From positions 124,001-188,000 of the IMG/VR virus record IMGVR_UViG_3300042455_001850: a stretch of DNA of 64,000 nucleotides; one strand, given 5' to 3'. Below, one piece after another: positions 43,855 through 60,974 of this stretch. A model generated the notes under the pieces. It made no database searches, was not told the origin of the DNA, and worked only from the letters and a program-made list of their open reading frames with translations. Both the position numbers and the translations under genes were made by a program. Each line of letters opens with the position of its first letter. The stretch's first letter is position 1. This stretch comes from a virus.

Positions 43855-44184
43855 ATGAAATCTTTAATTAAAAAAATATTAAACGAGTCTGAATTTGGTT
43901 GGATGGATGAAATTCCTTCTGATATTGATTTAAATTTATATAAATTTTTAGAAGATACCTTTAAAGTAGTAAAAACAGAATTTACAAGCCAATTTAGTGG
44001 TGAAGAATTTAAAATTAAACATTTAGTTGGAGCGGATGAATCTTTTAATATGAATTTTGAAGGTAAAAGTAATATATACAATAAAATATATTGGTTACTT
44101 GAAGAAGATTTTAAAGAAGATTTGGGTGAACCTCTAATCAGAAAAACTTTAAGAAAATTCTTAAATAATAAATATGAAGAATGA
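43855..44184 (+). CDS. Propeptide protein with DW module
   Basis: 109 residues. MKSLIKKILNESEFGWMDEI then PSD: L-N-E before Ser, followed by G-W-M and Pro. Small alpha/beta body. In a run of five propeptide genes with overlapping ends (43475-46074). Confidence 0.75.
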   Translation: MKSLIKKILNESEFGWMDEIPSDIDLNLYKFLEDTFKVVKTEFTSQFSGEEFKIKHLVGADESFNMNFEGKSNIYNKIYWLLEEDFKEDLGEPLIRKTLRKFLNNKYEE

Positions 44185-44396
44185 AAAGTCTAATAAAACA
44201 AATATTATTAGAAGAGGTTAAAAAAACCGAATGTGAATACCAAGTTCGTGAGATTGGTGGTGCTGATATTTATTATAAAAAGAAAAAAGGTGATAAGTAC
44301 TGGTCTTTTACCGATGAAAAGGATTTTGAAAAAAATTCAAAGAAAGGTAAGATAGTTAAGTGGAAAGAAAAGAAAAGAAATGAAAGATTTAATTAA
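44181..44396 (+). CDS. Propeptide small protein
   Basis: 71 residues. MKSLIKQILLEEVKKTECEY (L-L-E), then a basic strand-rich body IYYKKKKGDKYWSF. ATGA overlap with the previous gene. Confidence 0.7.
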   Translation: MKSLIKQILLEEVKKTECEYQVREIGGADIYYKKKKGDKYWSFTDEKDFEKNSKKGKIVKWKEKKRNERFN

Positions 44397-44853
44397 AAAA
44401 ATATTAAGAGAATCTTCTCAATGGGGTGGAACAGGAAAAGACCTAGATATGAAAGGCCATTTGGGTTATGACAAAAAAGTTTATGTCCATAGAAATTTAA
44501 ATGCTCCACCATATTTTTCAATTAAAGTTTCTGGTGGTGTTACAGGTGGAAAAGTTATTGGTTATGACACATCAATACATTTGAGAGATGTCAATTTTGT
44601 TGTTGGTGAAAGGGGTAATTTAGAAGTTTTACCTGTTGATTTAGGTGGTAAGGGTAAATCTAAAAATGTACATGCAGGTGCTGTGGGTTATGTCCTTAGT
44701 AGTGGTGAGAATTATATTGTAAACGGATGGAGAATTGTAACTTATAACCCAAGGGCTGGAGATAAGACTTTTGTTTACGCTGATACGCGTGAACCTATTT
44801 ATAAAGCTAAAGAAGCTATATTAATGAATGAAAAAGAAGTATGGGTACGATGA
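44380..44853 (+). CDS. Propeptide protein, Gly-rich beta domain
   Basis: 157 residues. MKDLIKKILRESSQWGGTGK: L-R-E before Ser. Body nearly all beta with many Gly and Val (YFSIKVSGGVTGGKVIGYDT). Overlaps neighbours at both ends. Confidence 0.75.
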   Translation: MKDLIKKILRESSQWGGTGKDLDMKGHLGYDKKVYVHRNLNAPPYFSIKVSGGVTGGKVIGYDTSIHLRDVNFVVGERGNLEVLPVDLGGKGKSKNVHAGAVGYVLSSGENYIVNGWRIVTYNPRAGDKTFVYADTREPIYKAKEAILMNEKEVWVR

Positions 44854-45413
44854 GAAAAACAATTAAAAAAATATTAAGAGAATCTGATTCATCTATAAGT
44901 TCAGGTTTTTATACTGGACCTATGGAGTTAGGTTTAAAAAAATGGGATGAAAAAGAATTAAAACCATACACAAATTTTGTTGATTCTAAATTTAATCACA
45001 ATAAAAAACAAAAAACATTAAAAAATAATATAAAAAAAGTTGTTGGTGTTTGGGAAAAAGATTCTAACGGTAGTTTTGATAGAAGAACACATGATGTTCA
45101 TACTATAAAAGAAGAAAACGACTTTGAATGGACCCAAGAAAATCAAACAGACGTACCGTTAGAAGAGATTGTTAATTGGTGTGAAAATAATAGAATTCAG
45201 ATTGCTGGTTGGATTCAAAAAATAGATGAGTTTGATAAACATTCACCACAAATGAAATGGGATGGTGACAATTCTGAATTTGCTGATGAAAATAAAATGA
45301 TTGCTTTATCAGTTAGAGGTATTGGTGATGAATTAAAAAATATATATGCTAGTTTTGAAACCATTAAAGGTGAAATAGATTATATACAAAACCCTGAAAA
45401 ATACAATGATTAA
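44850..45413 (+). CDS. Propeptide protein
   Basis: 187 residues from ATG 44850. MRKTIKKILRESDSSISSGF, L-R-E before Ser. Helical, acidic body (VPLEEIVNWCENNRIQIAGW). Overlaps the next gene by eight bases. Confidence 0.75.
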   Translation: MRKTIKKILRESDSSISSGFYTGPMELGLKKWDEKELKPYTNFVDSKFNHNKKQKTLKNNIKKVVGVWEKDSNGSFDRRTHDVHTIKEENDFEWTQENQTDVPLEEIVNWCENNRIQIAGWIQKIDEFDKHSPQMKWDGDNSEFADENKMIALSVRGIGDELKNIYASFETIKGEIDYIQNPEKYND

Positions 45414-46074
45414 AACCAAAAAACAAATATTATTAGAAGGTAAGTATGATTCATTGACCCGTATTATTAGTAGGGATATTATTAGTTGCATTAAAGAAAC
45501 TGAGGGTAGTTATGATGAATCTGAATATTTTTCATTGCCTTTTGAAAAAAACGGAGAAGAATATTACCAAGGGCCAAACTTAAATATTAATGTAGAATTA
45601 ACTATTCTAAGAACAAATGATAATATAGAACATAATGGTGAAGAAATACCTTATTATGTTAAATCGTATATTGATGATGAGGATTATCTTAACGTTGAGA
45701 TTTTAATTAACAACAATTACGATAAAGAATATTACGAAGAAATTTTTTATAAAATTAACGAGGATGTTAGACATGAGTTGGAACATCTATTACAAGGAAT
45801 TTTTTCGGATAGACAACAACCTAACATAGAATATACAGCAGATTATGAATCTACCTTTGAACATCACATGGACCCATCAGAAGTTGAGGCTTTAGTACAT
45901 GGGTTTTATAGAAGGGCCAAAATAGAAAAGAAACCTTTGGATATTGTAATGATGGATGACTTAAACCATGAAATTATGTTGGGGAACCTTTCAAGAGAAG
46001 AATCAAGTAAACTATTAAATACTTGGGTAACTTACGCTAGAAGACGTTTACCTGACGCTATTTATTCCTTCTAG
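45406..46074 (+). CDS. Propeptide HExxH metalloprotease-like protein
   Basis: 222 residues. Leader MIKTKKQILLEGKYDSLTRI (L-L-E before Gly). DVRHELEHLLQGIF contains the zincin motif H123-E-L-E-H127, with HHMDPSEVEALVHG about 40 residues later providing a third ligand candidate (E or H). Last gene of the propeptide run. Predicted zinc peptidase carried in the virion; target unknown. Confidence 0.75.
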   Translation: MIKTKKQILLEGKYDSLTRIISRDIISCIKETEGSYDESEYFSLPFEKNGEEYYQGPNLNINVELTILRTNDNIEHNGEEIPYYVKSYIDDEDYLNVEILINNNYDKEYYEEIFYKINEDVRHELEHLLQGIFSDRQQPNIEYTADYESTFEHHMDPSEVEALVHGFYRRAKIEKKPLDIVMMDDLNHEIMLGNLSREESSKLLNTWVTYARRRLPDAIYSF

Positions 46075-46138
46075 GGCTTTAATTTATTAAATAAAAAACT
46101 TACTATTAATAAAATAATTATTAATAAAAAGTTTTATT

Positions 46139-46318
46139 ATGCCAAAATCAAAAAATAAAAAAGACCATAAAAAGAGAGTGGCCCTTAGAAGACAAAAGTT
46201 AGACGAAAAAAGACGTGCTTTTTACAAAAAATTGGAGGCCCAATTTGGTGAAGAGGTAGCTAAAGAATTATCTAAACAACAAATACAAAGTGGTGAAGAA
46301 CCCGAATTAAATGTGTAA
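46139..46318 (+). CDS. 59-residue basic small protein
   Basis: MPKSKNKKDHKKRVALRRQK then a helical stretch FYKKLEAQFGEEVAKELSKQ and an acidic tail. Probably nucleic-acid binding. Two bases before the Nudix start. Confidence 0.65.
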   Translation: MPKSKNKKDHKKRVALRRQKLDEKRRAFYKKLEAQFGEEVAKELSKQQIQSGEEPELNV

Positions 46319-46320
46319 AT

Positions 46321-46968
46321 ATGGAAAATGTTATAACTAATTACAGTGTAAAAGATAGAAAAACTTTATATAATAGCTTTTCTAAAATAGAAGAACTCAC
46401 AATCAGTGATGGTGAGAAAGAAACTAAAAGAGAAATCTTAAAAATACCAGATTGTGTTGCCGCTATTATTTTTGATACGGTTAAGAAAAAATACATCTTT
46501 GTTGAACAGTACAGAGCTGGTGCTGAAGGTGTTATGGTAGAAGTAGTTGCTGGTAGTGTAGACAAAGGTGAAAAACACGAACAAGCAATAAAAAGAGAAA
46601 TCATGGAGGAAACAGGTTATAAGGTAGATTTTACAAACCATATAAGTGATTTCTACACCTCACCAGGAAGAACAACTGAAATTATATCATTGTTTTATTG
46701 TGAGGTTAGTGAGAGAGTAAATAAAGGTGGTGGTATTGGAGATGAAAACATTTCTATTGTTGAAGTAGAAAAGTTAGGTCTAAACGGTAGACTATTTTTT
46801 GATGACCCAACAGGGTTTAATATGGAAGTTGGTAAAGAATCTAAAATGATGCCACCATACCAATTGATTGACGCTAAATCTTTAATCGCAGTAATGTGGT
46901 TTGAAAAAAGTAATGTACTTAGAGATATGGCTGAGGTAATAACACAAGCTAAATTAAGGTCATTATAA
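46321..46968 (+). CDS. Nudix hydrolase (ADP-ribose pyrophosphatase-like)
   Basis: 215 residues. Full Nudix box at about 78-100: GSVDKGEKHEQAIKREIMEE then TGY (G-x5-E-x7-R-E-x-x-E-E-x-G). The flanking AAIIFDTVKKKYIFVEQYRA and FYTSPGRTTEIISLFYCEV match the ADP-ribose pyrophosphatase branch. Stop and next start overlap. Next gene is nicotinamidase-like, pointing to NAD-related chemistry. Confidence 0.88.
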   Translation: MENVITNYSVKDRKTLYNSFSKIEELTISDGEKETKREILKIPDCVAAIIFDTVKKKYIFVEQYRAGAEGVMVEVVAGSVDKGEKHEQAIKREIMEETGYKVDFTNHISDFYTSPGRTTEIISLFYCEVSERVNKGGGIGDENISIVEVEKLGLNGRLFFDDPTGFNMEVGKESKMMPPYQLIDAKSLIAVMWFEKSNVLRDMAEVITQAKLRSL

Positions 46969-47639
46969 TGGAAGATTTATTTCCAATATTTATTAACGTA
47001 AATACGCAAAGGGATTTTTTTACTGGTTCCTACAAAATACCCAGTTCTGATAGTATACTAACAAATCTTAATGATTTAACACAGTATGCTAAAATTAGAA
47101 ATGCTAAAGTTATTAATATAGCTGGTTGGTATACTGAAAATGCCAAACACTTATCAGATAACCCTAACTACAAAGACACCTTTCCAAAACATTGTTTAAT
47201 AAACACTGAGGGTGCTAAATTTCTTAAAGAAACATCACCTGAATCTTATTTTTTAATGGATTGGAATTCTTCTTCAGGTTTGGCATTTCACGACATACAC
47301 CAAAGTGACCAAATAGTTGTCACTAAAAGAACTATGGATTTTTTTGAGGGTAATACTTATTCAGAATCTTTAATACATAATTTAGGTATTCCTATTATGC
47401 AAAGACCAATCTTTTTGGTTTATGGTATTGATGTCGGACCAACGGTTAAAGGTTTATTAAGAAGGGGTTATGCTGTTAAAGTTGTTGAAGATGCTAATAG
47501 AACTTTAAGAGGTATGCCTTTCAGAAAGGATGATATTATAGAACAAAAACAAAATCCATACCCTGACCAAATAGTTGGACCTTTATCGAATGAGGTTCCA
47601 TTAGAATTTGTAACAACTAAATCGATTTTATCTTTATGA
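46968..47639 (+). CDS. Isochorismatase/nicotinamidase-like protein lacking catalytic residues
   Basis: 223 residues. Fold markers align: FINVNTQRDFF, AGWYTENAKH, FPKHCLINTEGAKFL, VTKRTMDFFEGN and LVYGIDVGPTVKGLLRRGYA then VVEDANRTL. In working nicotinamidases the first motif has Asp (here Asn), the DWH metal site is intact (here GWY) and the last motif has the nucleophile Cys (here Thr); only the Lys remains. It is probably a pseudoenzyme that binds a nicotinamide-type ligand or partner. Start overlaps the Nudix stop. Confidence 0.7.
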   Translation: MEDLFPIFINVNTQRDFFTGSYKIPSSDSILTNLNDLTQYAKIRNAKVINIAGWYTENAKHLSDNPNYKDTFPKHCLINTEGAKFLKETSPESYFLMDWNSSSGLAFHDIHQSDQIVVTKRTMDFFEGNTYSESLIHNLGIPIMQRPIFLVYGIDVGPTVKGLLRRGYAVKVVEDANRTLRGMPFRKDDIIEQKQNPYPDQIVGPLSNEVPLEFVTTKSILSL

Positions 47640-48244
47640 GTGATATATTAAATGTAATACAAAGGTGGGAATCTTTAGGTCTTTTAGAAGGTCTACCTGT
47701 ATGGGAAAAAGAAGAACTTGCACAAGTTTATGATAACGCAACTAGATTGTTGTTATCTGAACAAGCATTAAAGAAAATACCTAAAGACGTATTTGAAATA
47801 TTTGATAATGTGTACATACCTATTTGTCGTAGATTGTATAGAAGAGTTGGAACAAACTTTGATATAGAAAATATGATGTCACTTTTATTAAATGAGGTTT
47901 CCTCTAAAAAAAATAGTGAATTAATTTTTAACCCAAAAAATCCAGAAAAGAATCCAATTGTCGAATTTTGTATTATCTTTGCAGACACATACGAAGATAG
48001 TGAAACAAATAGAAAAACTTTAAGTAAAGAAGATTATGAGGAAAAGATAGATAAATTATTAAGTACTTTAAGGTCTGTTCTATTAGATGATGAAATGGTT
48101 TCTTTTATTAATAGAGAAGATGATTGGAAAATTGTCCATTCAGAAGCTAAAAAAACAGTCCATCAAACTAGATTTTGGAACCAAAAAATAGGTTCACAAC
48201 TAGTCAACTCAGTTTTGTCAGATATTAATAAAGGATTAAATTAA
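47636..48244 (+). CDS. Unrecognised helical protein
   Basis: 202 residues, helical throughout, with FDNVYIPICRRLYRRVG near 62-78 and an acidic C-terminal half. ATGA overlap with the nicotinamidase-like gene. Could be a structural helper; no family recognised. Confidence 0.7.
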   Translation: MSDILNVIQRWESLGLLEGLPVWEKEELAQVYDNATRLLLSEQALKKIPKDVFEIFDNVYIPICRRLYRRVGTNFDIENMMSLLLNEVSSKKNSELIFNPKNPEKNPIVEFCIIFADTYEDSETNRKTLSKEDYEEKIDKLLSTLRSVLLDDEMVSFINREDDWKIVHSEAKKTVHQTRFWNQKIGSQLVNSVLSDINKGLN

Positions 48245-48249
48245 AAAAT

Positions 48250-48669
48250 ATGGTTAATTGGATTAAAAGAAGAATTAAAAGATTTGGTATTAAATTTTTA
48301 ATGTGGGAGAAGGGTACTAAATTTCTTAAGCCTGAGGGTGAAAAAACAGAGTATGAAAAATTATGTCTTTCTATTTGTAGAAAACTTATTAGTCACCCTG
48401 AATCAAAGTTTAGTATTGCACCAATCTCAGATAAAAGATATATCATCAATGAGAAATTGGCTATGTTTGTTGTTTTTCAACAAAATACTGTTGAAATGAC
48501 AAACCACGTTTACCATTATGTAGTTAAACTAGATAACAGAGATGCTAATAGACTACATCATATGTATAACCATAAAACTGAGACTATTAGATTGGCTTAC
48601 GAAGAAAAAATCAAAGCTCAAATTACTAATAGTTTACAAAAAATTTTTGATAAAGTTTCTGAGTCATGA
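48250..48669 (+). CDS. Unrecognised protein
   Basis: 139 residues. Basic start MVNWIKRRIKRFGIKFLMWE, then mixed alpha/beta with NHVYHYVVKLDNRDANRLHH. ATGA overlap with the next gene. Confidence 0.7.
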   Translation: MVNWIKRRIKRFGIKFLMWEKGTKFLKPEGEKTEYEKLCLSICRKLISHPESKFSIAPISDKRYIINEKLAMFVVFQQNTVEMTNHVYHYVVKLDNRDANRLHHMYNHKTETIRLAYEEKIKAQITNSLQKIFDKVSES

Positions 48670-48917
48670 TAGAATATTTTACTGAACAGATTGATGGTAA
48701 TAAAAGGGTTACTGAAGAAAGTTTAATTGAGTTTAATGATAAAACTTATCATTCAGGAAGAGTGATGTCAGTAGGTGATATTGTGTTATTTGCTTTTTTA
48801 GATTTGGGTGGTGGTGATTCACAATTAGTCAAATTATGTTCAGATGATTTTGATTTGTATGAAATAGACCCACAAAGTGTAGAAAAAGCTTTCGTACCTA
48901 GAATAAAATTAAGATAA
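48666..48917 (+). CDS. Unrecognised small acidic protein
   Basis: 83 residues, acidic, beta-rich (GRVMSVGDIVLFAFLDLGGG). End of the operon that starts at 46139. Confidence 0.65.
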   Translation: MIEYFTEQIDGNKRVTEESLIEFNDKTYHSGRVMSVGDIVLFAFLDLGGGDSQLVKLCSDDFDLYEIDPQSVEKAFVPRIKLR

Positions 48918-48944
48918 GCTGTTGACTGATTAAAAAATAAACAC

Positions 48945-48952
48945 TAATATTG
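48945..48952 (+). promoter_or_regulatory. TTGAC / TAATATTG promoter of the RNA block
   Basis: TTGACTGA at 48922 and TAATATTG, one base from consensus, 18 bases apart. Confidence 0.5.
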
Positions 48953-48959
48953 TAGTGTA

Positions 48960-49204
48960 ATCAAACAAAAGGTTTACAAAGTTTTGGTAGAATACGGTAG
49001 ATGATAAATATCGTGAGTAACCAACCGACTAGGGTGAATATCCGAAGTTACGCTTTTGGAGACTATATAAAACCATGTTGACATGGTATTAGTCATTGAA
49101 AAAAGAAATTTGGTGGGAGTTATATGATATGGAAAGTACTAAAGTTCTTAGTTATAAGAAACCATATAGTTTGAAATAATACGGTGGGTAAAACCACCGA
49201 ATAT
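48960..49204 (+). ncRNA. Structured RNA upstream of tRNA-Gly
   Basis: No ORF in about 240 bases. GACTA (49061) / TAGTC (49090) encloses ACCATG-TTGA-CATGGT; TTCTTA-GTTA-TAAGAA (49145-49160); CGGTGG-GTAAAA-CCACCG (49182-49199). At 49047-49053 GTTACGC copies the 3' acceptor strand of the tRNA that follows. May be a separate RNA or a tRNA leader. Confidence 0.5.
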
Positions 49205-49277
49205 GCGTAACTAGTTTAGTGGTTAGAATACCTACCTTCCAGGTAGGAGACGAGAGTTCGAATCTCATCGTTACGCT
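49205..49277 (+). tRNA. tRNA-Gly(TCC), second copy
   Basis: Acceptor GCGTAAC/GTTACGC, stem CCTAC/GTAGG with loop CTTCCAG, T loop TTCGAAT. Confidence 0.92.
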
Positions 49278-49282
49278 CAAAT

Positions 49283-49309
49283 AAGGTCACAGAAATGTGG
49301 CCTTTTTTT
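49283..49309 (+). terminator. Terminator after tRNA-Gly
   Basis: AAGGTCACA-GAAA-TGTGGCCTT then eight T. Same CACA-GAAA-TGTG core as the terminator at 29840. Confidence 0.8.
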
Positions 49310-49372
49310 TGTTTTAAAATTTATTTACTAATCAATTAATTTTTAGTAGAATTAAGTATTAAATAACTAACA

Positions 49373-50293
49373 ATGGGAAAAAAAGATTTAAAAAAACAAT
49401 ACACCAATTTGGATGTGAGTGTCATAGATTATGTTTCTAGGATAGACCCTAGTAAAACAAATAAATTAACACCATTTCTTTTGAAAATCCTATCTAAAAA
49501 TATTTTAGATAGAGGTTACATCGCCAAAAAAGAATTTAGTGATATAACTAATAATGGAATTGATTTATATATTATTGAAATGTTGATAGATGTTATAGGT
49601 GACGGTTACCAAGGACTTGAAACATTAAGGGAGTTTAATGAACATCTAGAAAATAATCGTATTGAAAATACTGATATTAATCAATATGAGACGTGGGAAG
49701 ATTTGTTGATACAAAAAGGTATTGCTGATGTAAAACAAATGGATAAACAATTAACTAAACAAGTTGAACGTATTTACGAAGACTCTACTTGGTTAGTAAT
49801 TAAACCTTTATCATTTAGTGCTTCTTTAGCTTATGGTTCAGGTACAAAATGGTGTACAGCCATGAAAATGGAACCAACATATTTTTATCGATATGCTAGT
49901 GAAGGTATTTTGTTATATGTAATTAATAAAGTTAACGGTAAAAAATATGGTTTTAATTCCTCACCTAATGAATTTTCTGTTTGGAATACTACTGATAATA
50001 GAATTGATTCTTTAGAGTCAGGAGTTCCTTACGAGATTTTATCTATAATTAGAGAAAAATCAAATCTAAGTAATAACCCAAAAAATTCAGAATTATTTTC
50101 TGATGAGGAAATTAAAAATAAAGATAAATATTATGGACAACTTAAAATAGTACCACCATTATATGTTATCACGGATGACGAAGAGAGGGCTTACCCTTCC
50201 GAAATGTTAACGGAGGACATAGAGATTGGTGATTATACTATCTATGAAAGTCAGGCATATTCTGAAGAAGGAATGGAAGAGGTTGGATTTTGA
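49373..50293 (+). CDS. WCT-motif family member E (no propeptide)
   Basis: 306 residues. MGKKDLKKQYTNLDVSVIDY, RIDPSKTNKLTPFLLKIL, then IYEDSTWLVIKPLSFSASLA and YGSGTKWCTAMKMEPTYFYR with YASEGILLYVINK. Compact like member C and likewise without the L-x-E leader. The C terminus is acidic. The next gene begins nine bases after its stop. Confidence 0.75.
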   Translation: MGKKDLKKQYTNLDVSVIDYVSRIDPSKTNKLTPFLLKILSKNILDRGYIAKKEFSDITNNGIDLYIIEMLIDVIGDGYQGLETLREFNEHLENNRIENTDINQYETWEDLLIQKGIADVKQMDKQLTKQVERIYEDSTWLVIKPLSFSASLAYGSGTKWCTAMKMEPTYFYRYASEGILLYVINKVNGKKYGFNSSPNEFSVWNTTDNRIDSLESGVPYEILSIIREKSNLSNNPKNSELFSDEEIKNKDKYYGQLKIVPPLYVITDDEERAYPSEMLTEDIEIGDYTIYESQAYSEEGMEEVGF

Positions 50294-50301
50294 TTGAGGT
50301 G

Positions 50302-50748
50302 ATGTACAACAAGGGTGATATTATTAAATTAAAAGACGGTAGGGAGGTTAATATTTTTAATACACCTAGTACCTTTATGTCTAACGGGTCTTATGAAGTA
50401 ACCTACCAAGAAAAAAGGTTTTGGGTTAAACCCGAAGAAATTTTATATCAGATAGATACAAAATGGGTTGATGATATAAACCATTATTTTGAAATAATAT
50501 TTGATGAAAGTGGTATAAATATTATCCCTAAAGAATTAAGTTCTATAAATATAGAATCTGATAGAGAGGATATTAATAGGGTAAAATTTAATTTTTTAAG
50601 TGGTAGAAAACATAGTGTAATTAATTTTCATGTAGGTGATACTGTGGTAAATGATAAAGGTAGTATAACACTAAGACCCACAAAAAAGAAAAAAAGTAAA
50701 ATAGAAAAAGTTATTAATATTATTAAAGGAGAAGAAGATGAAATTTAA
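50302..50748 (+). CDS. Unrecognised protein with SH3-like start
   Basis: 148 residues from ATG 50302; a TTG four codons earlier overlaps the preceding gene. Start MYNKGDIIKLKDGREVNIFN has a small barrel look; C terminus basic (RPTKKKKSKIEKVINIIKGE). Overlaps the next gene. Confidence 0.65.
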   Translation: MYNKGDIIKLKDGREVNIFNTPSTFMSNGSYEVTYQEKRFWVKPEEILYQIDTKWVDDINHYFEIIFDESGINIIPKELSSINIESDREDINRVKFNFLSGRKHSVINFHVGDTVVNDKGSITLRPTKKKKSKIEKVINIIKGEEDEI

Positions 50749-51199
50749 TAAACCATTTCACATAAAATTACAACCACATTATGTAATTAAAGAACCTACG
50801 AACTATCATGAGATAGAGTTAGAAAATGAGAACTCAAAAAAATTAGGTGGGATAAATACTATTGATGGTGATACAGAAGAGTATGAATCTATTCTAAGAA
50901 GTGGTGGTAGAATGGATTGGTCTTTATACAATGAACCTGACTCACATAAGCCTGAAATTAATGTAAATTTGATGCGTATTTGGGCCCTACAACTTGTAAC
51001 ACAAATGATAAATGGAAAAGCTTATGTAAATGAAATTATAAGTGAGCCAAAGTTTAGTGTTAGTGAAGATGATAAAGATGTTTTTCTTGAAATTATGGAA
51101 AATATGGCAAAAGTTTTACATGATGAGTTGGAAGCCGTTAGTGATTCTATGATACTAAAGAAAAAAAATAAATTTAAATTTACAGAAGATGAAAAATAA
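50738..51199 (+). CDS. Unrecognised protein
   Basis: 153 residues, acidic, helical second half (VFLEIMENMAKVLHDELEAV). Eleven-base overlaps with both neighbours show a tight operon. Confidence 0.68.
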   Translation: MKFNKPFHIKLQPHYVIKEPTNYHEIELENENSKKLGGINTIDGDTEEYESILRSGGRMDWSLYNEPDSHKPEINVNLMRIWALQLVTQMINGKAYVNEIISEPKFSVSEDDKDVFLEIMENMAKVLHDELEAVSDSMILKKKNKFKFTEDEK

Positions 51200-51446
51200 A
51201 AATTTTGAACGATTAAGTAATGATAATTACTTATATTTAAATGAAACTAACAATATTATTTATTGTTCTGATTTTGATGTTCCATTAGGGCATATTTCGG
51301 ATGAATATAGATTCATACCAAATGGTCGGTCATCACAAGAACAAGGTTTAACACCACAAATATTGATAGCTATTTCTAATATAATTAAAAAGAAAGCTGG
51401 AATTGGTGAAAAAAGAACAGAAGTATTTGAAGACGGAGTTTCTTAA
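51189..51446 (+). CDS. Unrecognised small protein
   Basis: 85 residues: NYLYLNETNNIIYCSDFDVP, then a helix ILIAISNIIKKKAG. Ends ...EDGVS at TAA. A second coding-like frame (+1) starts inside it at 51406. Confidence 0.65.
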   Translation: MKNKNFERLSNDNYLYLNETNNIIYCSDFDVPLGHISDEYRFIPNGRSSQEQGLTPQILIAISNIIKKKAGIGEKRTEVFEDGVS

Positions 51447-51579
51447 AAGTAATTTTAAGAACGGCTCTAGTTTAGTATTAAAATTTTTTTTACCTGAATT
51501 AGATTTGGATTGGGATGGGGTATATTTTATTTTAAAAGACACAAAAGACCATATAAAATGGAAGATAAAAAAGAAATAG
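51406..51579 (+). CDS. GTG-started or frameshift-extended small ORF
   Basis: 57 codons open in the +1 frame with coding-like residues (KNGSSLVLKFFLPELDLDWD then GVYFILKD). No ATG; GTG 51406 is the best start. Alternatively the 51189 product is extended by +1 slippage at TCT-TAA before its stop. Overlaps the next gene start by 22 bases. Confidence 0.4.
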   Translation: MKKEQKYLKTEFLKSNFKNGSSLVLKFFLPELDLDWDGVYFILKDTKDHIKWKIKKK

Positions 51580-51776
51580 ATTATACATTAAATGGTATCG
51601 AATTTATTCTTGGTTACGATTTAACAGAATACAAAACCAATGGGGGTGTTAAATATTTCCCATCAGTTTCTTACCTTATATTCAATGAGGTTGACTTTAA
51701 ACCAATATTGGATAGGGATTTAATCGATGAGGTTAGAGTTTTTTTATTTAAAAAACATAATAACATTATGGTATGA
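51558..51776 (+). CDS. Unrecognised small protein
   Basis: 72 residues from ATG 51558 (MEDKKEIDYTLNGIEFILGY); the longer frame from 51510 overlaps the small ORF above. Alpha/beta, ends in a basic helix. Late-type promoter of the next gene begins four bases after its stop. Confidence 0.62.
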   Translation: MEDKKEIDYTLNGIEFILGYDLTEYKTNGGVKYFPSVSYLIFNEVDFKPILDRDLIDEVRVFLFKKHNNIMV

Positions 51777-51779
51777 TAT

Positions 51780-51788
51780 GATATTTAT
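51780..51788 (+). promoter_or_regulatory. NATATTTAT-type promoter
   Basis: GATATTTAT five bases before ATG 51794, part of a palindrome ATGATATTTATATCAT. Confidence 0.5.
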
Positions 51789-51793
51789 ATCAT

Positions 51794-53404
51794 ATGGATA
51801 CTAAAAAAATAATTAAAGGTGTTTTACTTGAAGTGGCAGGTATTTCTTTTGAAGTCAGAAGATGGGCACAAGATATAGAGAATTATGTAAAAAATTATGT
51901 GGCTGCTGAAAGAGAAAAACTAAAGTCACAAGCACCACAACAACCAAAAACACCACCTACACAACAAGGTCCTAAAAATTTTTCTTGGTCATCTCCAGCA
52001 AAAACTGAAAAAGAAGAAGATGACTATGACTATAAAACAACTTTCACCCATTTTGAAAATGATACACATGAACCTTATGAAGAGGCTAATGTTTATGCTG
52101 ACGAATTGGTTATAAATGCTGATGTCTTATATGAGTTCCCTGGTATTAAACGTGCTATAACGGGTATGTTGTTTAATATTAAATTAGATGGTGAGGGTGC
52201 TTTTTATGTTGATGTGGTAGATTCTAAATTTCCTGAAAATTTTAGAGAAGGTATAGAAGAAATTATCGAAGACCATATGGTTAGTGGAGAACCTTTTTAT
52301 ACTGAAGATTATGAACTTGTTTACGCCGTAGATTACGGTGATGACGAATACACTTATTATATGTCTGAATCTTCTTATGATGATTATAATAGAGGATATG
52401 ATTATAGAGGAGGGTATGGTTATTATGGTGGGTACCAGCAACAACCAAAAATTGATAAAATAGAAATTAACGGGAAAGATTTTCCACAATCTTACAAAGA
52501 TTTTAATGTTGATAAATGGATAATCACCAACTCTGATAGAATTGAATATGACCATTGGAAATCTGGTTATAATGATGCCGGTGAATATGTAGTTTATTTG
52601 AATATGCCTATGAGCTCAATCGGTGGTTCTGCTTTGATACACGAGATTAAACATGCTTATGACGATTGGAACCGTATGAGGAAAGGTAAACCAGCAATCA
52701 GAGATGGGTGGGAAATAAAAAATATCTATACACCTGATTTTGAAAAATTAGTTTTAGGTGGGTCATTTAAGCTAAGCCCAATGTTACATCCAATAATAAG
52801 ATATTACTATTTAGGTTCTAAACTGGAAGCTCCAGCTTATTTAGAAAATGAATATGATAGTCCTGTGATGGGTAGTTATCGTGATACAGCTAAAAAATTA
52901 ATGAATTTTAAAGCTTCAAACTTTTTAGATAAACAAGGTAACCCAGCAAAGGGTTTACAAGAGTCTTGGACTAAGTTAATAACAGAGTTTAACATACCTT
53001 TCTTTAGAAAGTTTAAAAATGTGGTAGATTTCTTAAATTATACTGAAAAATATTTTAACAAAAGAGGTCGTGATATCCTAAAACGTATTGATAAAATGAA
53101 GTACGTTCACGGAAAACCAATGACTGTACAAGCTCCACCTAAAGTTTATCCAAAAACAGAACCTAAAACTAACGTACCAACCAGTACAACTGAATTACCT
53201 AAAACTACTGTGATGCCTAATACAGGTCAAAGTGAAATTGAAAGGTTAGATAAACAAATAGACAGATTGGAAAATGAGTGGGATAAACTTAGAGAAGAAG
53301 ACCCAATCAAAAACAAAATGGACTTGGAGGAATTAGATGTTATAATTAGGGGGTTAATTAAAAAAAGAAATTCACTAAATAAAAACAGTGATTTACCATT
53401 CTAA
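51794..53404 (+). CDS. Propeptide HExxH metalloprotease-like protein
   Basis: 536 residues. Leader MDTKKIIKGVLLEVAGISFE (L-L-E). Pro/Gln-rich linker (APQQPKTPPTQQGPKNF), an acidic domain, a Tyr/Gly-rich tract (YDYRGGYGYYGGYQQQ, about 196-217), then SALIHEIKHAYDDWNRM with zincin motif H283-E-I-K-H287, and a C-terminal coiled coil after a Pro/Thr linker. Architecture suggests a large virion-carried peptidase with flexible arms. Confidence 0.78.
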   Translation: MDTKKIIKGVLLEVAGISFEVRRWAQDIENYVKNYVAAEREKLKSQAPQQPKTPPTQQGPKNFSWSSPAKTEKEEDDYDYKTTFTHFENDTHEPYEEANVYADELVINADVLYEFPGIKRAITGMLFNIKLDGEGAFYVDVVDSKFPENFREGIEEIIEDHMVSGEPFYTEDYELVYAVDYGDDEYTYYMSESSYDDYNRGYDYRGGYGYYGGYQQQPKIDKIEINGKDFPQSYKDFNVDKWIITNSDRIEYDHWKSGYNDAGEYVVYLNMPMSSIGGSALIHEIKHAYDDWNRMRKGKPAIRDGWEIKNIYTPDFEKLVLGGSFKLSPMLHPIIRYYYLGSKLEAPAYLENEYDSPVMGSYRDTAKKLMNFKASNFLDKQGNPAKGLQESWTKLITEFNIPFFRKFKNVVDFLNYTEKYFNKRGRDILKRIDKMKYVHGKPMTVQAPPKVYPKTEPKTNVPTSTTELPKTTVMPNTGQSEIERLDKQIDRLENEWDKLREEDPIKNKMDLEELDVIIRGLIKKRNSLNKNSDLPF

Positions 53405-53441
53405 ACTTTTCTTATTTAAATGTTTTTAGTATCATTAACAT

Positions 53442-53639
53442 ATGAATGAAGTATATGTTATAAGAAAAGTAATGACCAATAAATATGGTAAAAAATTAAA
53501 TATTTTAATTACCAATGGTCATTCCGAAATTTTAGAATTTAATAATCTTGATGAAGCCGAAAAATTAACACTTGTTATGAATGAAAATTCTGACAGTGGA
53601 TGGCTTTATTATGTAGTTACAATAAAAAAAAATGATTAA
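53442..53639 (+). CDS. Unrecognised small protein
   Basis: 65 residues, strand-rich (VYVIRKVMTNKYGKKLNILI). TAATG coupling to the HNH gene. Confidence 0.65.
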   Translation: MNEVYVIRKVMTNKYGKKLNILITNGHSEILEFNNLDEAEKLTLVMNENSDSGWLYYVVTIKKND

Positions 53640-53998
53640 TGTGCAGAAAAAAACCATTTTGGGCTAAAAAAAATGAAGACAGATGGTTACAACTAAAATT
53701 TAATATAGAATTTTTAAGAAAAACAGAATTAGAATACAGTAAATTACATTGTGAATATTGTGGAAAACAAAATTTAGTAGTTTACGATTGGTGTGAAAAA
53801 ATTAGTAACGATGATGTAGCAACTGTAGACCATTTTTATCCAAAGTCTAGATACAATGAATTAAAAATGGATGAAAATAATTTTGTTATATCTTGTTATA
53901 GTTGTAACAGTGAAAAAAAAGATAGAGTATGGCCTAAAGAAAGTATAAAATTTCCTTTAGGTGAAGAAAAATTAAAAAATTTAATTGATATAAATTAA
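53639..53998 (+). CDS. HNH endonuclease
   Basis: 119 residues. CEYCGKQNL, VATVDHFYPKSRYNE and NFVISCYSCNSEKKDRVWP form a complete zinc-bound HNH core. Coupled on both sides by TAATG overlaps, so it is embedded in an operon and not free-standing. Confidence 0.85.
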   Translation: MCRKKPFWAKKNEDRWLQLKFNIEFLRKTELEYSKLHCEYCGKQNLVVYDWCEKISNDDVATVDHFYPKSRYNELKMDENNFVISCYSCNSEKKDRVWPKESIKFPLGEEKLKNLIDIN

Positions 53999-54417
53999 TG
54001 GAATTGATATCGACACATCCCATTAGAAAATCTGACCTCGGTTTTCATGGGAATCTTTTTGGGGGTCAGTTATTACAGTGGATAGATTTGGCAGCTTTAT
54101 CTTACGCGACACAATGTTGTGATACCCCTAGAATGGTAACAGCAACTATGGATTCAGTATTTGTAAGACCAGCTAAAGAAGGTCAAGTTATTAAAATATA
54201 CGCAGATATTTTAGATATTGGTAATAAAAGTATTACTCTTAAAATAGAAGCAAGGTCACACGATGTTTATGATGGTGAACAAAATGTGGTATCAGATACT
54301 AAATGCGTCTTTGTTAGAGTAAACGAAGAAAACAAATCTATTCCAATATCTGATAGAGTTAAACTTAAATTTGGGTTTAAGACCATTGAAGATATTACAA
54401 TACCAACTAGGAAATAA
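53998..54417 (+). CDS. Acyl-CoA thioesterase-like hotdog protein
   Basis: 139 residues. HPIRKSDLGFHGNLFGGQLL then QWIDLAALSYAT is the YciA/ACOT-type hotdog core (N-x-x-G-x-x-F-G-G-x-L with D), and MDSVFVRPAKEGQVIKIYAD the following strands. Hydrolyses acyl-CoA thioesters in cellular homologues. In a phage it may alter lipid precursors. Thioredoxin gene follows. Confidence 0.85.
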   Translation: MELISTHPIRKSDLGFHGNLFGGQLLQWIDLAALSYATQCCDTPRMVTATMDSVFVRPAKEGQVIKIYADILDIGNKSITLKIEARSHDVYDGEQNVVSDTKCVFVRVNEENKSIPISDRVKLKFGFKTIEDITIPTRK

Positions 54418-54437
54418 TATAAATAAAAATATAAAAA

Positions 54438-54740
54438 ATGAGTGATAATTTTAATGAAATAATTAAATCAAAAAAACCTACCTTGGTAGATTTTTATGCC
54501 ACTTGGTGTGGTCCTTGTAGAATGATGGAAAAACCATTAGAAGAAATTAAATCTGAGATTGGTGATTCTGTAACAATTTTAAAAGTGGATGTTGACTCTA
54601 ATAGAGAAACTGCCATGAAATATAATGTAAGAGGGGTACCCACTTTTATTCTATTTAAAGAAGGTGAAATTGTGTGGAGACAATCTGGTGCAATGGCTAA
54701 AGATTTAATAAAAAATAAACTTAACGAGTTTATCCAATAG
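54438..54740 (+). CDS. trxA: Thioredoxin
   Basis: 100 residues, normal length. LVDFYATWCGPCRMM gives the WCGPC active site near 23-27; cis-Pro in VRGVPTFILFKEG. Reduces disulfides in the cytoplasm, for instance of ribonucleotide reductase. Confidence 0.95.
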   Translation: MSDNFNEIIKSKKPTLVDFYATWCGPCRMMEKPLEEIKSEIGDSVTILKVDVDSNRETAMKYNVRGVPTFILFKEGEIVWRQSGAMAKDLIKNKLNEFIQ

Positions 54741-54783
54741 TTACAATCTATATCACATCCTAGTGTATTATTATAATTTTCAA

Positions 54784-54792
54784 GATATTTAT
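54784..54792 (+). promoter_or_regulatory. NATATTTAT-type promoter
   Basis: GATATTTAT, six bases before ATG 54799. Confidence 0.5.
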
Positions 54793-54798
54793 TTATTG

Positions 54799-56295
54799 AT
54801 GGAAATAGAAAAATCTGTAGAATGTGAAATTTCTAAAAAAGATATGAAACTTTATGATGAGTTCATTAATTTTTTAAAAAAGGAATATCCATTAGAACAC
54901 AATATTAAAATACGTTTTATGTCATCTAGATTAGATGAGATGACTACTGGTGCAAGAACAAACAAACATACGTTAAAGATTCTTGTTAAAGGTAGAATGA
55001 ATAGAGATGTTCTTAGAACCTTAGCACACGAATGGATTCATGAATATCAAAGAACCGTATTAGGTAGAAAAAAACAAAAAAATGTTGGTAGTAAAAATGA
55101 AAATGAGGCCAATGCTAAAGCGGGTGAGGTAATTAAAAAATTTGAGGATAAACACCCCAAATTAACTAACCAAATGTATGAAAGTATAATCAAAAAAATA
55201 ATTAGAGAAGAGGTTGAAGGTTATTCTGATTTTGATTGGATACACGAAATACCTTCTTTTTTACCTGGAAAATATTTTGATGAGGATAGTGTTTGTTTTA
55301 ATAATCAAGGAGACGATTGTGAGATTAATATTGGTGACGATGAAACAGTTTTTTCCTTAGACTATGAAAAATGGAGGGACAGGATGAGTGAAGGTTTTGG
55401 TGATAATGAAAGTATTATTGAACCACTTTTAGAAAATCCAAATTACAGTAATGATAATGATTACTATGATTTGGACTATGAAGAATTTGATTATGCTGGG
55501 TATCATATGTCATCTGAACAAAAAGAAAGATTAGAAAAAATTGTAAAATTAATTTCACCTAATATAGATTTGGAAGAGTATTTAAATGATAATTTAAATG
55601 ATTTAGAAAAACATTTACTTATTTCACAAATTAAAAGGTATTGGGATACTTTACAAAATCGTTTTATAGAAATTCTTAGTTATAAAATACAAGAAAATAG
55701 ATGGAATTCAATCGCTGAATATTATAGAACATTAACTTTAGGTTCTGATAATAAATTTAAATTTCCTGTAAAATTTAAAAAATCATATTCCAGATGGTAT
55801 GATACTATTGAAATCACTTTAAGTACAAAAGATTTAATTACAATTCTTGAAAAGAATACTGTTAATAACGATTTATCGAAAGCTTTAAATGAATTATCTT
55901 CTATTGTAACTAACGTCAGTTGGTATGACTACTTTTATGAAGAATGGGATACTAGTGGTGCTGAATGGGAAATCAGGGATGCTTTTGATAAATTTTTAAG
56001 TAATAGTGAAGAATATATTGATGAAAATCCAGAAGAATTTATGGAACAAAAAAAATTCTATGATAGATTACAAAAATTAGGTTTTAAACCAACTGCAGGT
56101 TATGGTAATGTATGGTCAAAAAATGATGATGTTGATGGTTGGATTTGGGTTGCTGATGAAATAGATTTGGAATCTAATAAACTGAGATTAAGAAAAACAA
56201 AAAGAATGAGTGGGGGAACCGACCCAAAAAATGTGTTTCAAATAAATTTTGATGATTTACCCTTTTACTTGTCACAATATCGTATGGACATTTAA
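54799..56295 (+). CDS. HExxH metalloprotease-like protein with internal propeptide-like joint
   Basis: 498 residues from ATG 54799, chosen because the late-type motif is just upstream. Small N-terminal zincin: TLAHEWIHEYQRTVLGRKKQ with H77-E-W-I-H81 and NENEANAKAGE downstream as third-ligand region. Then, near residue 130, YESIIKKIIREEVEGYSDFD with WIHEIPSF repeats the leader plus DWI module found at the N terminus of other proteins. A peptidase joined to a late-protein module; cleavage at I-R-E would release both. Confidence 0.75.
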   Translation: MEIEKSVECEISKKDMKLYDEFINFLKKEYPLEHNIKIRFMSSRLDEMTTGARTNKHTLKILVKGRMNRDVLRTLAHEWIHEYQRTVLGRKKQKNVGSKNENEANAKAGEVIKKFEDKHPKLTNQMYESIIKKIIREEVEGYSDFDWIHEIPSFLPGKYFDEDSVCFNNQGDDCEINIGDDETVFSLDYEKWRDRMSEGFGDNESIIEPLLENPNYSNDNDYYDLDYEEFDYAGYHMSSEQKERLEKIVKLISPNIDLEEYLNDNLNDLEKHLLISQIKRYWDTLQNRFIEILSYKIQENRWNSIAEYYRTLTLGSDNKFKFPVKFKKSYSRWYDTIEITLSTKDLITILEKNTVNNDLSKALNELSSIVTNVSWYDYFYEEWDTSGAEWEIRDAFDKFLSNSEEYIDENPEEFMEQKKFYDRLQKLGFKPTAGYGNVWSKNDDVDGWIWVADEIDLESNKLRLRKTKRMSGGTDPKNVFQINFDDLPFYLSQYRMDI

Positions 56296-58676: not shown

Positions 58677-58900
58677 AAAAAATATTTTTTATACTACCTG
58701 TATTATTTGCTTGTAAATCATATCAGAACAAGGATTATTATGTTGAAAGATATCCTGATTTTTGGGAAGATACCATTGTTTTAGAGGATGGTCATTGGCA
58801 TTTTTGTGATAATAATAAATGGACCTGTATTGAAACTAATGCCGATACATTAGTTTTTAGTGTTCATGATACGATAGAGGTTAAAAATTATTTTAAATGA
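58673..58900 (+). CDS. Small lipoprotein
   Basis: 75 residues. MKKIFFILPVLFACKSYQNK: short signal with lipobox LFAC. Aromatic mature part (YPDFWEDTIVLEDGHWHFCD). With the membrane proteins at 57789 and 58232 it could form an envelope set; the pairing of an inner-membrane and an outer-membrane lipoprotein fits a two-component spanin, unproved. Confidence 0.7.
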   Translation: MKKIFFILPVLFACKSYQNKDYYVERYPDFWEDTIVLEDGHWHFCDNNKWTCIETNADTLVFSVHDTIEVKNYFK

Positions 58901-59397
58901 ATATAGGTGACTGTAAACATACCACAATTTGGGATTATACGGGTTGGCAAAATATGACTGATATGGATGACATCCAACCTGAGTGGAATAAAACCCTTAT
59001 AACAAGAATTAACCAAGTCTCTACACAAATACATCGTTCTTCTTTGAGGAGAGGTGGAGATACTGTAATAATGAACCCAAAACTAATTGAACTCTTATCA
59101 GAATATTATTATGATAACGGTCTACTTAATAGATATAGGGTTGAATTAGATGAATCTATGGATTTAGATATTATCTTCGTTTGTAATAGAACAGATAACA
59201 CTACACCACAAATGGTAGTTAGGTCTGTTAGGGCCAATGAGAGTGAGATACCTGAAGTTATGGTATTACATGAAAGGCAATGTACACCTGAAGAAGTTTT
59301 AGAATATAAAAAAGGTTTATGTGGTTATATAACTATACAAAATTATTACAGTAATAGTATGAACCCTAGAAAAAATATTAAAAAATTGAAATTATAA
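58897..59397 (+). CDS. Unrecognised protein
   Basis: 166 residues, alpha/beta. GWQNMTDMDDIQPEWNKTLI, GDTVIMNPKLIELLSEYY. Such mixed acidic proteins often are phage structural subunits but nothing decisive is seen. ATGA overlap with the lipoprotein; terminator follows. Confidence 0.68.
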   Translation: MNIGDCKHTTIWDYTGWQNMTDMDDIQPEWNKTLITRINQVSTQIHRSSLRRGGDTVIMNPKLIELLSEYYYDNGLLNRYRVELDESMDLDIIFVCNRTDNTTPQMVVRSVRANESEIPEVMVLHERQCTPEEVLEYKKGLCGYITIQNYYSNSMNPRKNIKKLKL

Positions 59398-59456: not shown

Positions 59457-60173
59457 ATGAACAACCTCATTAAAAAAATCATTAGAGAATCTTTGGATAA
59501 TGATTGGTCATGGACCGAATTTGAACCTGTTAAACCTAGAAAAAAAGGTGAGGTTAGAGTTGGTGATGTGTATACAATATATGATTCTAATGAATCCATT
59601 AGATACGTTTTAGAAATCGTTAAAATTGATGATTACAATAGTATGATAGATGATGAGGATGATGAGGATGATGATTATGATGGTAGTGGTACTATTCATT
59701 ATAAAATACATGTAACAACTGATGAAGAAGATGAACCTGTTGGTGGTATACGTACTGTAACTAAAAAACGTGCCAAAAGATTAATTGTAAGAGATAACCA
59801 TTGGGTTCTTACTGATTCCCTTGATAAAATTTTTAATCCTTTAAAGGAAGAAGCAGAAGATGATTTGGATTGGATGAGAGAAGTCTTACCAGTAGGTGAA
59901 ATGGTTATAGATGCCTTAAAATCAGATGAACGTTATAGAGTTATTACCGAATACGACGATAAAGGTAATTTAATTGAGTTAGAAATATATGATAGATATG
60001 ATGCTGGAAGATTTTTTGGTATTGTTTATAAAAACATATCTTATAGTGATGTTTTAGAAAAATCTAAAGAAAGTTTTAACTTTTGTCTTGATAATGATAG
60101 TAGTGAAGAAATCACAAGACAATACCAACAAATATATAATTTATTAAAGGAATATCAGTATAAATCCTTTTAA
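59457..60173 (+). CDS. Propeptide protein with two DW modules
   Basis: 238 residues. Leader MNNLIKKIIRESLDNDWSWT (I-R-E before Ser, then D-W-S-W) and a second copy near 133, PLKEEAEDDLDWMREVLPVG. Both modules are followed by small beta domains. An acidic Asp run separates them (DDEDDEDDDYDG). Predicted virion-internal and possibly cut twice. Confidence 0.75.
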   Translation: MNNLIKKIIRESLDNDWSWTEFEPVKPRKKGEVRVGDVYTIYDSNESIRYVLEIVKIDDYNSMIDDEDDEDDDYDGSGTIHYKIHVTTDEEDEPVGGIRTVTKKRAKRLIVRDNHWVLTDSLDKIFNPLKEEAEDDLDWMREVLPVGEMVIDALKSDERYRVITEYDDKGNLIELEIYDRYDAGRFFGIVYKNISYSDVLEKSKESFNFCLDNDSSEEITRQYQQIYNLLKEYQYKSF

Positions 60174-60197
60174 AATAAGGGGTTTTTCTTTTATAAA

Positions 60198-60206
60198 GAT
60201 ATTTAT
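60198..60206 (+). promoter_or_regulatory. NATATTTAT-type promoter
   Basis: GATATTTAT four bases before ATG 60211. Confidence 0.5.
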
Positions 60207-60210
60207 TGAT

Positions 60211-60561
60211 ATGAATCTTAAAAAAATCATAAAGGAGGAATTGGATGGTCTTGATTGGGTTAGAAATGTTACCCCACACGTACCTATAACAGACCTTAGT
60301 CCTGGTGAAAAATATACGTTTCATCACCTACCAAAAAAATCACTTAATTCTATTTATTTTGACAGTGACCTTGAAGACCATGATTTAGTGAATACAATTT
60401 TTATTATTGATGAAAGTGGTGGATTTTATGACGAAGATAAGGGTGTAACAACTGATTACTCTGATACAAATACAACTGATTTTTGGTTAATTCCTGCAGG
60501 TGTAAGTGTGTCAGGTGGTTGGGTTGAATCTGATGGTGTTATGGTAATAAGAGTAGATTAA
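60211..60561 (+). CDS. Propeptide protein, DWV module
   Basis: 116 residues. MNLKKIIKEELDGLDWVRNV then TPHVPITDLSPGEKYTFHHL. Ends with DTNTTDFWLIPAGVSVSGGW, nearly the same as the end of the next protein, so the two are tandem duplicates. Confidence 0.76.
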   Translation: MNLKKIIKEELDGLDWVRNVTPHVPITDLSPGEKYTFHHLPKKSLNSIYFDSDLEDHDLVNTIFIIDESGGFYDEDKGVTTDYSDTNTTDFWLIPAGVSVSGGWVESDGVMVIRVD

Positions 60562-60562
60562 T

Positions 60563-60973
60563 ATGAACCCACAAGAAGAAATAAATAGAATCAAATCAAT
60601 CATGGGCCTTCTTATTGAAGGTGATGATGATATGTTTGATAGTTTAGATTGGATTAGGGATATTAAACCAGTACCTGTTACAAGTCTTGGTCCTGGTGCT
60701 AAATTTAAAATTGTTGAATTGGGTCCAAAAGCTATTAAAGAACTTAATCAAAATGAGGGTACTAGAAAATATTTAAAAAATGGTAAAATATTTAAAAAGA
60801 AATTTATTATTGATGAAGAAGATGGATTTATGGGAAATGAGTCAGATGGAGTACAAAGGTCAACTGATTACGCTGATGAAGATACAACTGATTTTTGGTT
60901 AATAGATTTAAAACGTAAACTAGGTAATACTTGGATTGATGTTAGTGGTGTTATGGTTGTAGAAATAAATTAA
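60563..60973 (+). CDS. Propeptide protein, DWI module, tandem paralogue
   Basis: 136 residues. Longer leader MNPQEEINRIKSIMGLLIEG (L-I-E before Gly), then SLDWIRDIKPVPVTSLGPGA and EDTTDFWLIDLKRKLGNTWI. About half its residues match the 60211 product. Confidence 0.76.
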   Translation: MNPQEEINRIKSIMGLLIEGDDDMFDSLDWIRDIKPVPVTSLGPGAKFKIVELGPKAIKELNQNEGTRKYLKNGKIFKKKFIIDEEDGFMGNESDGVQRSTDYADEDTTDFWLIDLKRKLGNTWIDVSGVMVVEIN

Positions 60974-60974
60974 T

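Follow-up and report, generated by a model that had tools for sequence, protein, structure and literature searches.

Why would a phage encode three proteins with different HExxH motifs, each carrying a short leader peptide that recurs across its genome? The question is raised by a window of 64,000 nucleotides (positions 124,001 to 188,000 of IMG/VR record IMGVR_UViG_3300042455_001850, a virus record of 195,712 bases with T4-like tail genes), in which HELEH, HEIKH and HEWIH motifs lie in what we call zincin genes 1, 2 and 3, of families 1, 2 and 3, respectively. An original prediction, made from the DNA alone, saw in them zinc proteases injected at the first moment of infection. On balance we favor a reading in which the leader-bearing genes of this phage encode internal head proteins of the T4 type, with zincins 1 and 2 among them, which would act in the newly infected cell; for zincin 3 the case is different.

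Three conserved HExxH families

Three HExxH proteins are indeed encoded at the places originally named, which turn out to be the positions of gene starts and not of motifs, and the leader comes first in two of the proteins (45406, 51794) and is internal in the third (54799), just as had been described (Table 1). HExxH is a short motif, and its threefold occurrence in a Glu-rich phage proteome might be accidental: shuffling the residues of the open reading frames (ORFs) of the window yields 0.39 HExxH on average, with P(>=3)=0.0075, and an additional HExxH in the genome, in a 74-aa ORF at 192971, resembles a chance match. Against such an origin, HExxH is invariant over diverged homologues and is paired with a downstream ExxA, equally invariant, in each of three alignments, A1 for family 2 (7 members), A2 for family 1 and A3 for family 3 (15 members). 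All three families thus combine HExxH with a candidate third-ligand Glu, the signature of gluzincins, and this conservation rules out chance, to which we give next to no weight.

The prediction had also called the proteins otherwise unrelated. Pairwise profile comparison finds no relation among the three window proteins or their families beyond HExxH itself, and a recent common origin of the three is therefore not supported; the description needs qualifying, however, in that the HEWIH and HELEH types are neighboring domains of one polyprotein in related phages. The protein of a fourth zincin-like gene, outside the window (Table 1), has homologues (58-100%) in other uncultured contigs and a more distant one (27%) in a 635-kb uncultured phage.

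Table 1. Positions of the zincin genes and associated features (window coordinates unless stated; an arrow marks a predicted cut)
Feature	Position	Strand	Remarks
Four overlapping leader-first genes upstream of zincin gene 1	43855..45413	+	MKSLIKKILNE↓S, MKSLIKQILLE↓E, MKDLIKKILRE↓S, MGTMRKTIKKILRE↓S
Zincin gene 1 (222 aa)	45406..46074	+	ORF; closes the run of leader-bearing genes
Predicted capsid-targeting propeptide, MIKTKKQILLE↓GKYD	45406..45438	+	Glu11-Gly12 invariant in A2
HELEH, zinc-binding/catalytic motif, residue 123	45772..45786	+	HE[LI]EH invariant in all homologues examined
EVEA (ExxA), predicted third zinc ligand Glu159	45880..45891	+	E159, A162 invariant in A2
GATATTTAT, promoter-like, directly upstream of zincin gene 2	51780..51788	+
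Zincin gene 2 (536 aa)	51794..53404	+	Leader and HEIKH conserved in 7-member A1
Predicted capsid-targeting propeptide, MDTKKIIKGVLLE↓VAGIS	51794..51832	+	E13 invariant, then invariant AGIS
HEIKH motif, residue 283	52640..52654	+	7/7 homologues; HEIKHAYDDWNRM invariant
EAPA (ExxA), candidate third ligand Glu345	52826..52837	+	E345, A348 invariant in A1
GATATTTAT, promoter-like, directly upstream of ATG 54799	54784..54792	+
Zincin gene 3	54799..56295	+	Family 3 domain of ~126 aa, internal leader, unrelated C-terminal part
HEWIH motif, residue 89 of the ORF from GTG 54763	55027..55041	+	HExxH form in 15/15 of A3
ENEA (ExxA), predicted third ligand	55099..55110	+	E101, E103, A104, N105 invariant in A3 (ExxA residues E101/A104)
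Internal leader, MYESIIKKIIRE↓EVEGYSDFDW	55174..55209	+
Fourth zincin-like gene (399 aa)	Genome 111544-112743, outside the window		HELLH...FEINA; leader MKKVELLNE↓IMG; GATATTTAT upstream

The leader as a predicted T4-type propeptide

The prohead protease gp21 of phage T4 cleaves by an (I/L)-x-E rule. Its substrates include the T4 capsid-targeting sequence, an N-terminal propeptide of 10-19 residues that gp21 removes (PMC9026906). In the phage studied here, the leader pattern occurs within the first 25 residues of 30 of the 245 ORFs of the genome, against 4.1 expected from internal stretches; a looser definition finds 46 ORFs against 14.3 expected, and a very strict one proved too narrow for use. 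The last residue is Glu in 18/18 canonical leaders, and P3 is Leu or Ile in as many. A DNA element common to these genes does not explain the leader, since its codons vary synonymously and, apart from the short GATATTTAT, the DNA before it is not alike. Constant residues with varied codons and unlike upstream DNA therefore point to selection on the leader peptide. The propeptides of zincin genes 1 and 2, of 11 and 13 aa, lie within the N-terminal 10-19 residue range and end in [L/I]-x-E. No such N-terminal propeptide is present in gene 3, whose leader is internal, ~125 residues past ATG 54799.

Neither gp21 nor a complete gp23 was found in the window's own record, G000. A second contig, G019 (226,303 bases), is 100% identical to G000 over 9.2 kb (shared locus at 107544 in G000) and, by the offset of shared gp23-like loci, reaches ~67 kb further left; the source is therefore a T4-like jumbo phage of at least ~260 kb. 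G019 stops short of the zincin gene 2 locus and holds gp20, gp21 (2.7e-28), a scaffold gene and a full gp23 (3.7e-62). A phage lacking gp21 or gp23 could thus be rejected, G000 being a fragment, and an incomplete record is the best explanation for the missing gp21. It is through G019, not G000, that the S77 prohead protease gp21 is placed in the same phage.

Two leader-bearing genes of G019, beginning MKKVIKLNEADLEKLVQKIIRE↓E and MNIRKIIKEELLKE↓VGGYDD, stand between gp21 and the scaffold gene, an arrangement that related contigs repeat (gp21 was found in 11/19 related records). The gp23 propeptide in G019, ASVLINE↓TDTSGG, obeys the same [L/I]-x-E rule, and the scaffold protein has by inspection a site IIDEAFME↓A, so that the predicted sites in known gp21 substrates of this phage follow the rule of the leader. 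From its position and this shared rule, the leader is very probably the capsid-targeting propeptide of this phage lineage.

Some of the leader genes share an upstream element. In the 45 nt before their start, 9/47 leader ORFs have GATATTTAT, against 2/198 others (Fisher 7e-6), and those two begin MIISENILQALLVE↓ and MSNKINKLVKKNLNTLLE↓, which are leader-like themselves. Sites of GATATTTAT in the window include 51780, 54784, 59443 and 60198, and it is nearly confined to leader-gene starts. Zincin genes 2 and 3 and the fourth zincin-like gene all have it upstream, and among the uncultured relatives examined the family 3 genes follow either GATATTTAT or the one-base-weaker ATATTTAT. Looser ATATTTAT forms stand upstream of gp20 and gp21 of this phage, and GATATTTAT itself upstream of gp20 in contig L081 and of gp22 in L085. 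We regard GATATTTAT as a candidate promoter of the internal-protein class. Elements of the form TATAAATA, found before some other genes, are distinct from this class.

Two further observations concern the leader proteins. A second leader type, MN.QEEI.RIKSIMGLL.E, likewise ending in LxE, occurs at window 60563-60973 and genome 194226-195065. By eye, a motif [LF][DEG]W[IMV]x[ED]I.P follows the predicted cut in many leader proteins (window 43855-44184, 31252-31788, 59457-61388 and 54799-56295), where it may be a second signal or a docking site at the mature end.

Domain architecture of the three families

In family 1, the close relatives L016 and L057 (48-50% identity) are, like gene 1, separate genes with a leader. 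In distant relatives, gene 183 of Flavobacterium phage immuto among them, the family 1 domain is the last of a polyprotein of ~530-1030 aa. The order is clearest in L063, where leader, cytidyltransferase-like domain (phrog_3041, 1.6e-11), zincin A (HEMIHHxQ), a variable linker, [LM]xE↓GRYD and zincin B (RHEIEH) follow one another. The junction E↓G[RK]YD is thus N-terminal in gene 1 and internal in the polyproteins. Its Glu-Gly is constant, and the residues leading up to it vary (VLIE, VLKE, QLKE, TLEE, VMAE), the pattern to be expected of a gp21 site that is cut at the N-terminus and inside a protein alike. A leader-tagged nucleotidyltransferase-like domain also heads the double-zincin polyprotein in L067, L058 and immuto gene 183, as in L063 (5023-6612), and possibly represents an injected enzyme of NAD or nucleotide metabolism.

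Family 2 comprises seven uncultured-phage sequences, including that of the window; a search of phage isolates found no relative. All keep the leader Glu, the AGIS that follows it, HEIKHAYDDWNRM and LExPAYLENEYD.

Gene 3 was listed as an ORF from GTG 54763 (54763-56295). Homologues start at ATG 54799, and GATATTTAT sits between the two codons; the ATG is thus the most likely true start. We found 12 distinct family 3 homologues in uncultured contigs. At the sensitivity used, a search covering one genome from each bacterial and archaeal species gave no relative. Six of the 12 are standalone genes of 129-135 aa (L031, L037, L039, L040, L048 and L052), and five of these end at ..MY[ED], where the window ORF continues into its leader. 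The other six have a linker with an [IL]xE site and then another domain, which in L035 is an Fe/Mn superoxide dismutase (Pfam, 4e-40) and in the others was assigned by inspection. These zincin-superoxide dismutase fusions are L035, L033, L032, L049, L053 and L025. In L031 (6404-8050), the dismutase is encoded by the following gene, with an N-terminal extension of its own ending FFITE↓, which suggests that this dismutase is packaged. Zincin A of the polyproteins belongs to the HEWIH family by profile comparison (probability 96.8, E 2.8e-10), the two being linked by cyanophage B23. There, in gp332, MNYKQFLRE↓ stands directly before the zincin, and a family 3 domain can therefore be leader-tagged in another phage.

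Fold of the HExxH domains

Structures were predicted for family 2 and for a fragment of a homologue that spans zincins A and B, the latter from a 19-sequence alignment that included the window proteins. The model of the A/B fragment (pLDDT 79) shows twice the succession of a helix, strands, HExxH helix and Glu helix, which is the order of the zincin core (PMC5512222); the position of Glu159 of gene 1 falls in a helix of this homologue. The family 2 model (pLDDT 66) places HEIKH in a helix after strands. Significant viral structural matches to the A/B model include two IrrE N-terminal-like proteins (E 1.4e-5 and 1.3e-4, probability 1.0), and the B23 homologue matches the PHROG metallo-protease phrog_87 (5e-5). 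Against PDB sequence profiles, family 3 shows marginal similarity to Spartan (E 0.13), and families 1 and 2 gave only noise. Scans of the three window proteins with Pfam, PHROGs and PADLOC returned nothing convincing; the curated Pfam cut-off for Peptidase M78 is not reached, the window proteins having no match to this family and the cyanophage S-SRM01 homologue scoring 13 bits against a 22-bit cut-off. Overall, we consider a zincin fold of the HExxH proteins very probable.

Predicted delivery and its alternatives

We propose that leader proteins would be made late in infection, alongside the prohead core. Each would attach to the prohead's scaffold core by its N-terminal propeptide, which is short, basic and hydrophobic and has [L/I]-x-E at its end. 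Once gp21, the prohead protease of the S77 type, had cut after the leader Glu, the mature protein would be retained in the head and ejected with the DNA. Zincins 1 and 2 would thus reach the newly infected cell and cleave something there, perhaps a host regulator or defense protein. IrrE and ImmA cleave regulators, and the likeness to these proteins is no more than suggestive. Packaging of zincins 1 and 2 seems probable, injection is an even call, and cleavage of a host protein is a tentative proposal. Extending this scheme, a jumbo T4-like lineage may have tens of gp21-processed leader proteins with a promoter-like element in common, several unrelated minimal zincins among them, all delivered to the host; these would be the first injected proteases of the T4 type. 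Such an arsenal, which would include the leader-tagged nucleotidyltransferase-zincin-zincin polyprotein and the zincin-superoxide dismutase fusions of relatives, is a possibility that we hold with similar reserve.

The prediction of injected proteases is borne out in so far as the leader conforms to a prohead propeptide of the T4 type and directly precedes a conserved zincin-type domain in two of the three proteins; it fits the third poorly, where the HEWIH zincin precedes the leader and most close relatives are leaderless. Several results weigh against injected proteases. Zincin 3 lies on the propeptide side of its own leader, so that cleavage would detach it, and its standalone relatives are leaderless. 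The model of family 2 is a weak one, with its putative third ligand in a low-confidence stretch; a fold search of the PDB found nothing significant for either model; and none of the three window proteins reaches any Pfam cut-off. The lack of a PDB fold match and of a Pfam peptidase above cut-off would also suit metal binders, inactive scaffolds or non-peptidase hydrolases. Decayed enzymes, however, usually lose the catalytic Glu or the third ligand first, whereas no family here shows any change in the HExxH Glu or in the ExxA, and the resemblance to IrrE-like and PHROG metallo-protease models likewise argues for proteases; that the proteins are something else appears improbable. Packaging of the HEWIH zincin is doubtful, because it precedes the leader and its relatives either lack one or are fused to a superoxide dismutase that follows them. 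Despite the upstream element it shares with the set, zincin 3 is possibly cut away from the packaged part: either the leader is that of a downstream part which came to be fused to the zincin, or the zincin rides along.

The zincins might instead be packaged and act within the prohead or virion on phage proteins (polyproteins, scaffold or tail), with no disarming of the host. Tandem zincins in the polyproteins of relatives, ordered nucleotidyltransferase, zincin A, LxE↓GRYD, zincin B, would suit this role; autoprocessing has been proposed for the zincins of polyvalent proteins such as P1 DdrB (PMC5512222), and a part in maturation has been suggested for jumbo-phage zincins (PMC7824862). Yet the domain junctions fit the gp21 rule, so that their cutting requires no zincin; zincins 1 and 2 are separate genes each with its own leader; and the set of zincin genes and fusions varies among related phages, unlike core morphogenesis genes. 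We consider such a role rather unlikely. The same holds, a little more firmly, for the suggestion that the zincins are ordinary late intracellular enzymes whose leader, for instance, directs them to a membrane, the ribosome or a compartment, or stabilizes the fold as a helix. The leaderless standalone family 3 genes and the position of zincin 3 upstream of its leader would follow naturally from it, but an address helix has no reason for an invariant terminal Glu, and here the P1 Glu never varies and P3 is always Leu or Ile, leader genes sit between gp21 and scaffold, and the gp23 site obeys the same rule.

Relation to known systems

The original prediction presented injected zinc proteases as a new way to disarm a host, and in this respect it went too far: Iyer et al. 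2017 had already proposed injected zincin metallopeptidases in the polyvalent proteins of phages (PMC5512222), zincins have been noted in jumbo phages (PMC7824862), and T4 Ip1, Ip2 and Ip3 are leader-routed injected proteins that inhibit type IV restriction enzymes (PMC12373910). What appears here looks like a new variant, zincins on the internal-protein route of T4, within a class of injected zincins already predicted; our literature search, of incomplete coverage, found no paper on zincins with T4-type capsid-targeting leaders.

With IPI, IPII, IPIII and Alt of T4, the leader proteins share a short N-terminal [L/I]-x-E propeptide, the S77 protease gp21 and a predicted place among the variable proteins of the prohead core. 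They differ in that their leader is basic (IKKILRES-like) and not of the T4 type, in numbering ~30-45 genes where T4 has a handful, and in a cargo that includes zincin domains and, in relatives, superoxide dismutase and nucleotidyltransferase. Polyvalent proteins likewise have zincins as cargo or processing domains (PMC5512222), and relatives of the immuto type have several domains, two of them zincins. In contrast, the window genes are separate, single-zincin and equipped with a removable gp21-type leader, and the typical partners vRNAP, ART and SNF2 were not seen here. A polyvalent protein has at least 2 distinct effector or enzymatic domains; each window protein has one recognizable domain, and relatives combine a nucleotidyltransferase with two zincins, or a zincin with superoxide dismutase.

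The minimal gluzincins IrrE/ImmA (M78) and SprT/Spartan have in common with the A/B model a small succession of helix, strands, HExxH helix and Glu helix; this model resembles viral IrrE-like models, and there is weak sequence similarity to Spartan and M78. Unlike them, the window proteins stay below Pfam cut-offs and lack a helix-turn-helix partner or regulator context. Immuto gene 183 unites family 3-type and family 1-type zincin domains with an E↓GRYD junction in one polyprotein with an N-terminal nucleotidyltransferase part, whereas the window has separate genes; it is annotated as the NMN adenylyltransferase NadR, its zincin part being unannotated. The cyanophage proteins B23 gp332 and S-SRM01 QPX48222 share the domain of family 3, with identities of 29% and 37% in A3, and in B23 it lies behind a T4-like leader (MNYKQFLRE↓S); both are annotated as hypothetical, however, and the S-SRM01 copy has no leader.

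If the proposed route is correct, the leader would read out, from sequence alone, which phage proteins enter the host first, and each genome in a group of uncultured phages would yield tens of candidates for early effectors. Proteases would be among these effectors, and their host targets could reveal unknown defenses. Zincin domains hidden in genes labeled NadR, cytidyltransferase or superoxide dismutase would then call for re-annotation.

Other features of the genome

Seven small ORFs each match a different piece of gp23 of the same phage, in scrambled order, with the complete gp23 elsewhere in the genome. They lie at window 47636-48244 and 58897-59397 and at genome 85571-85972, 86265-86594, 87717-88031, 118469-118705 and 118665-119090, with identities of, for example, 59% over residues 357-417, 46% over 529-585 and 45% over 22-94. 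Such separately encoded gp23 fragments could serve as decoys, modulate assembly or act as packaging tags. The window also encodes 14 tRNAs and a phage tmRNA (29236-29628) with the tag ANATVGHFVTEGATVAA.

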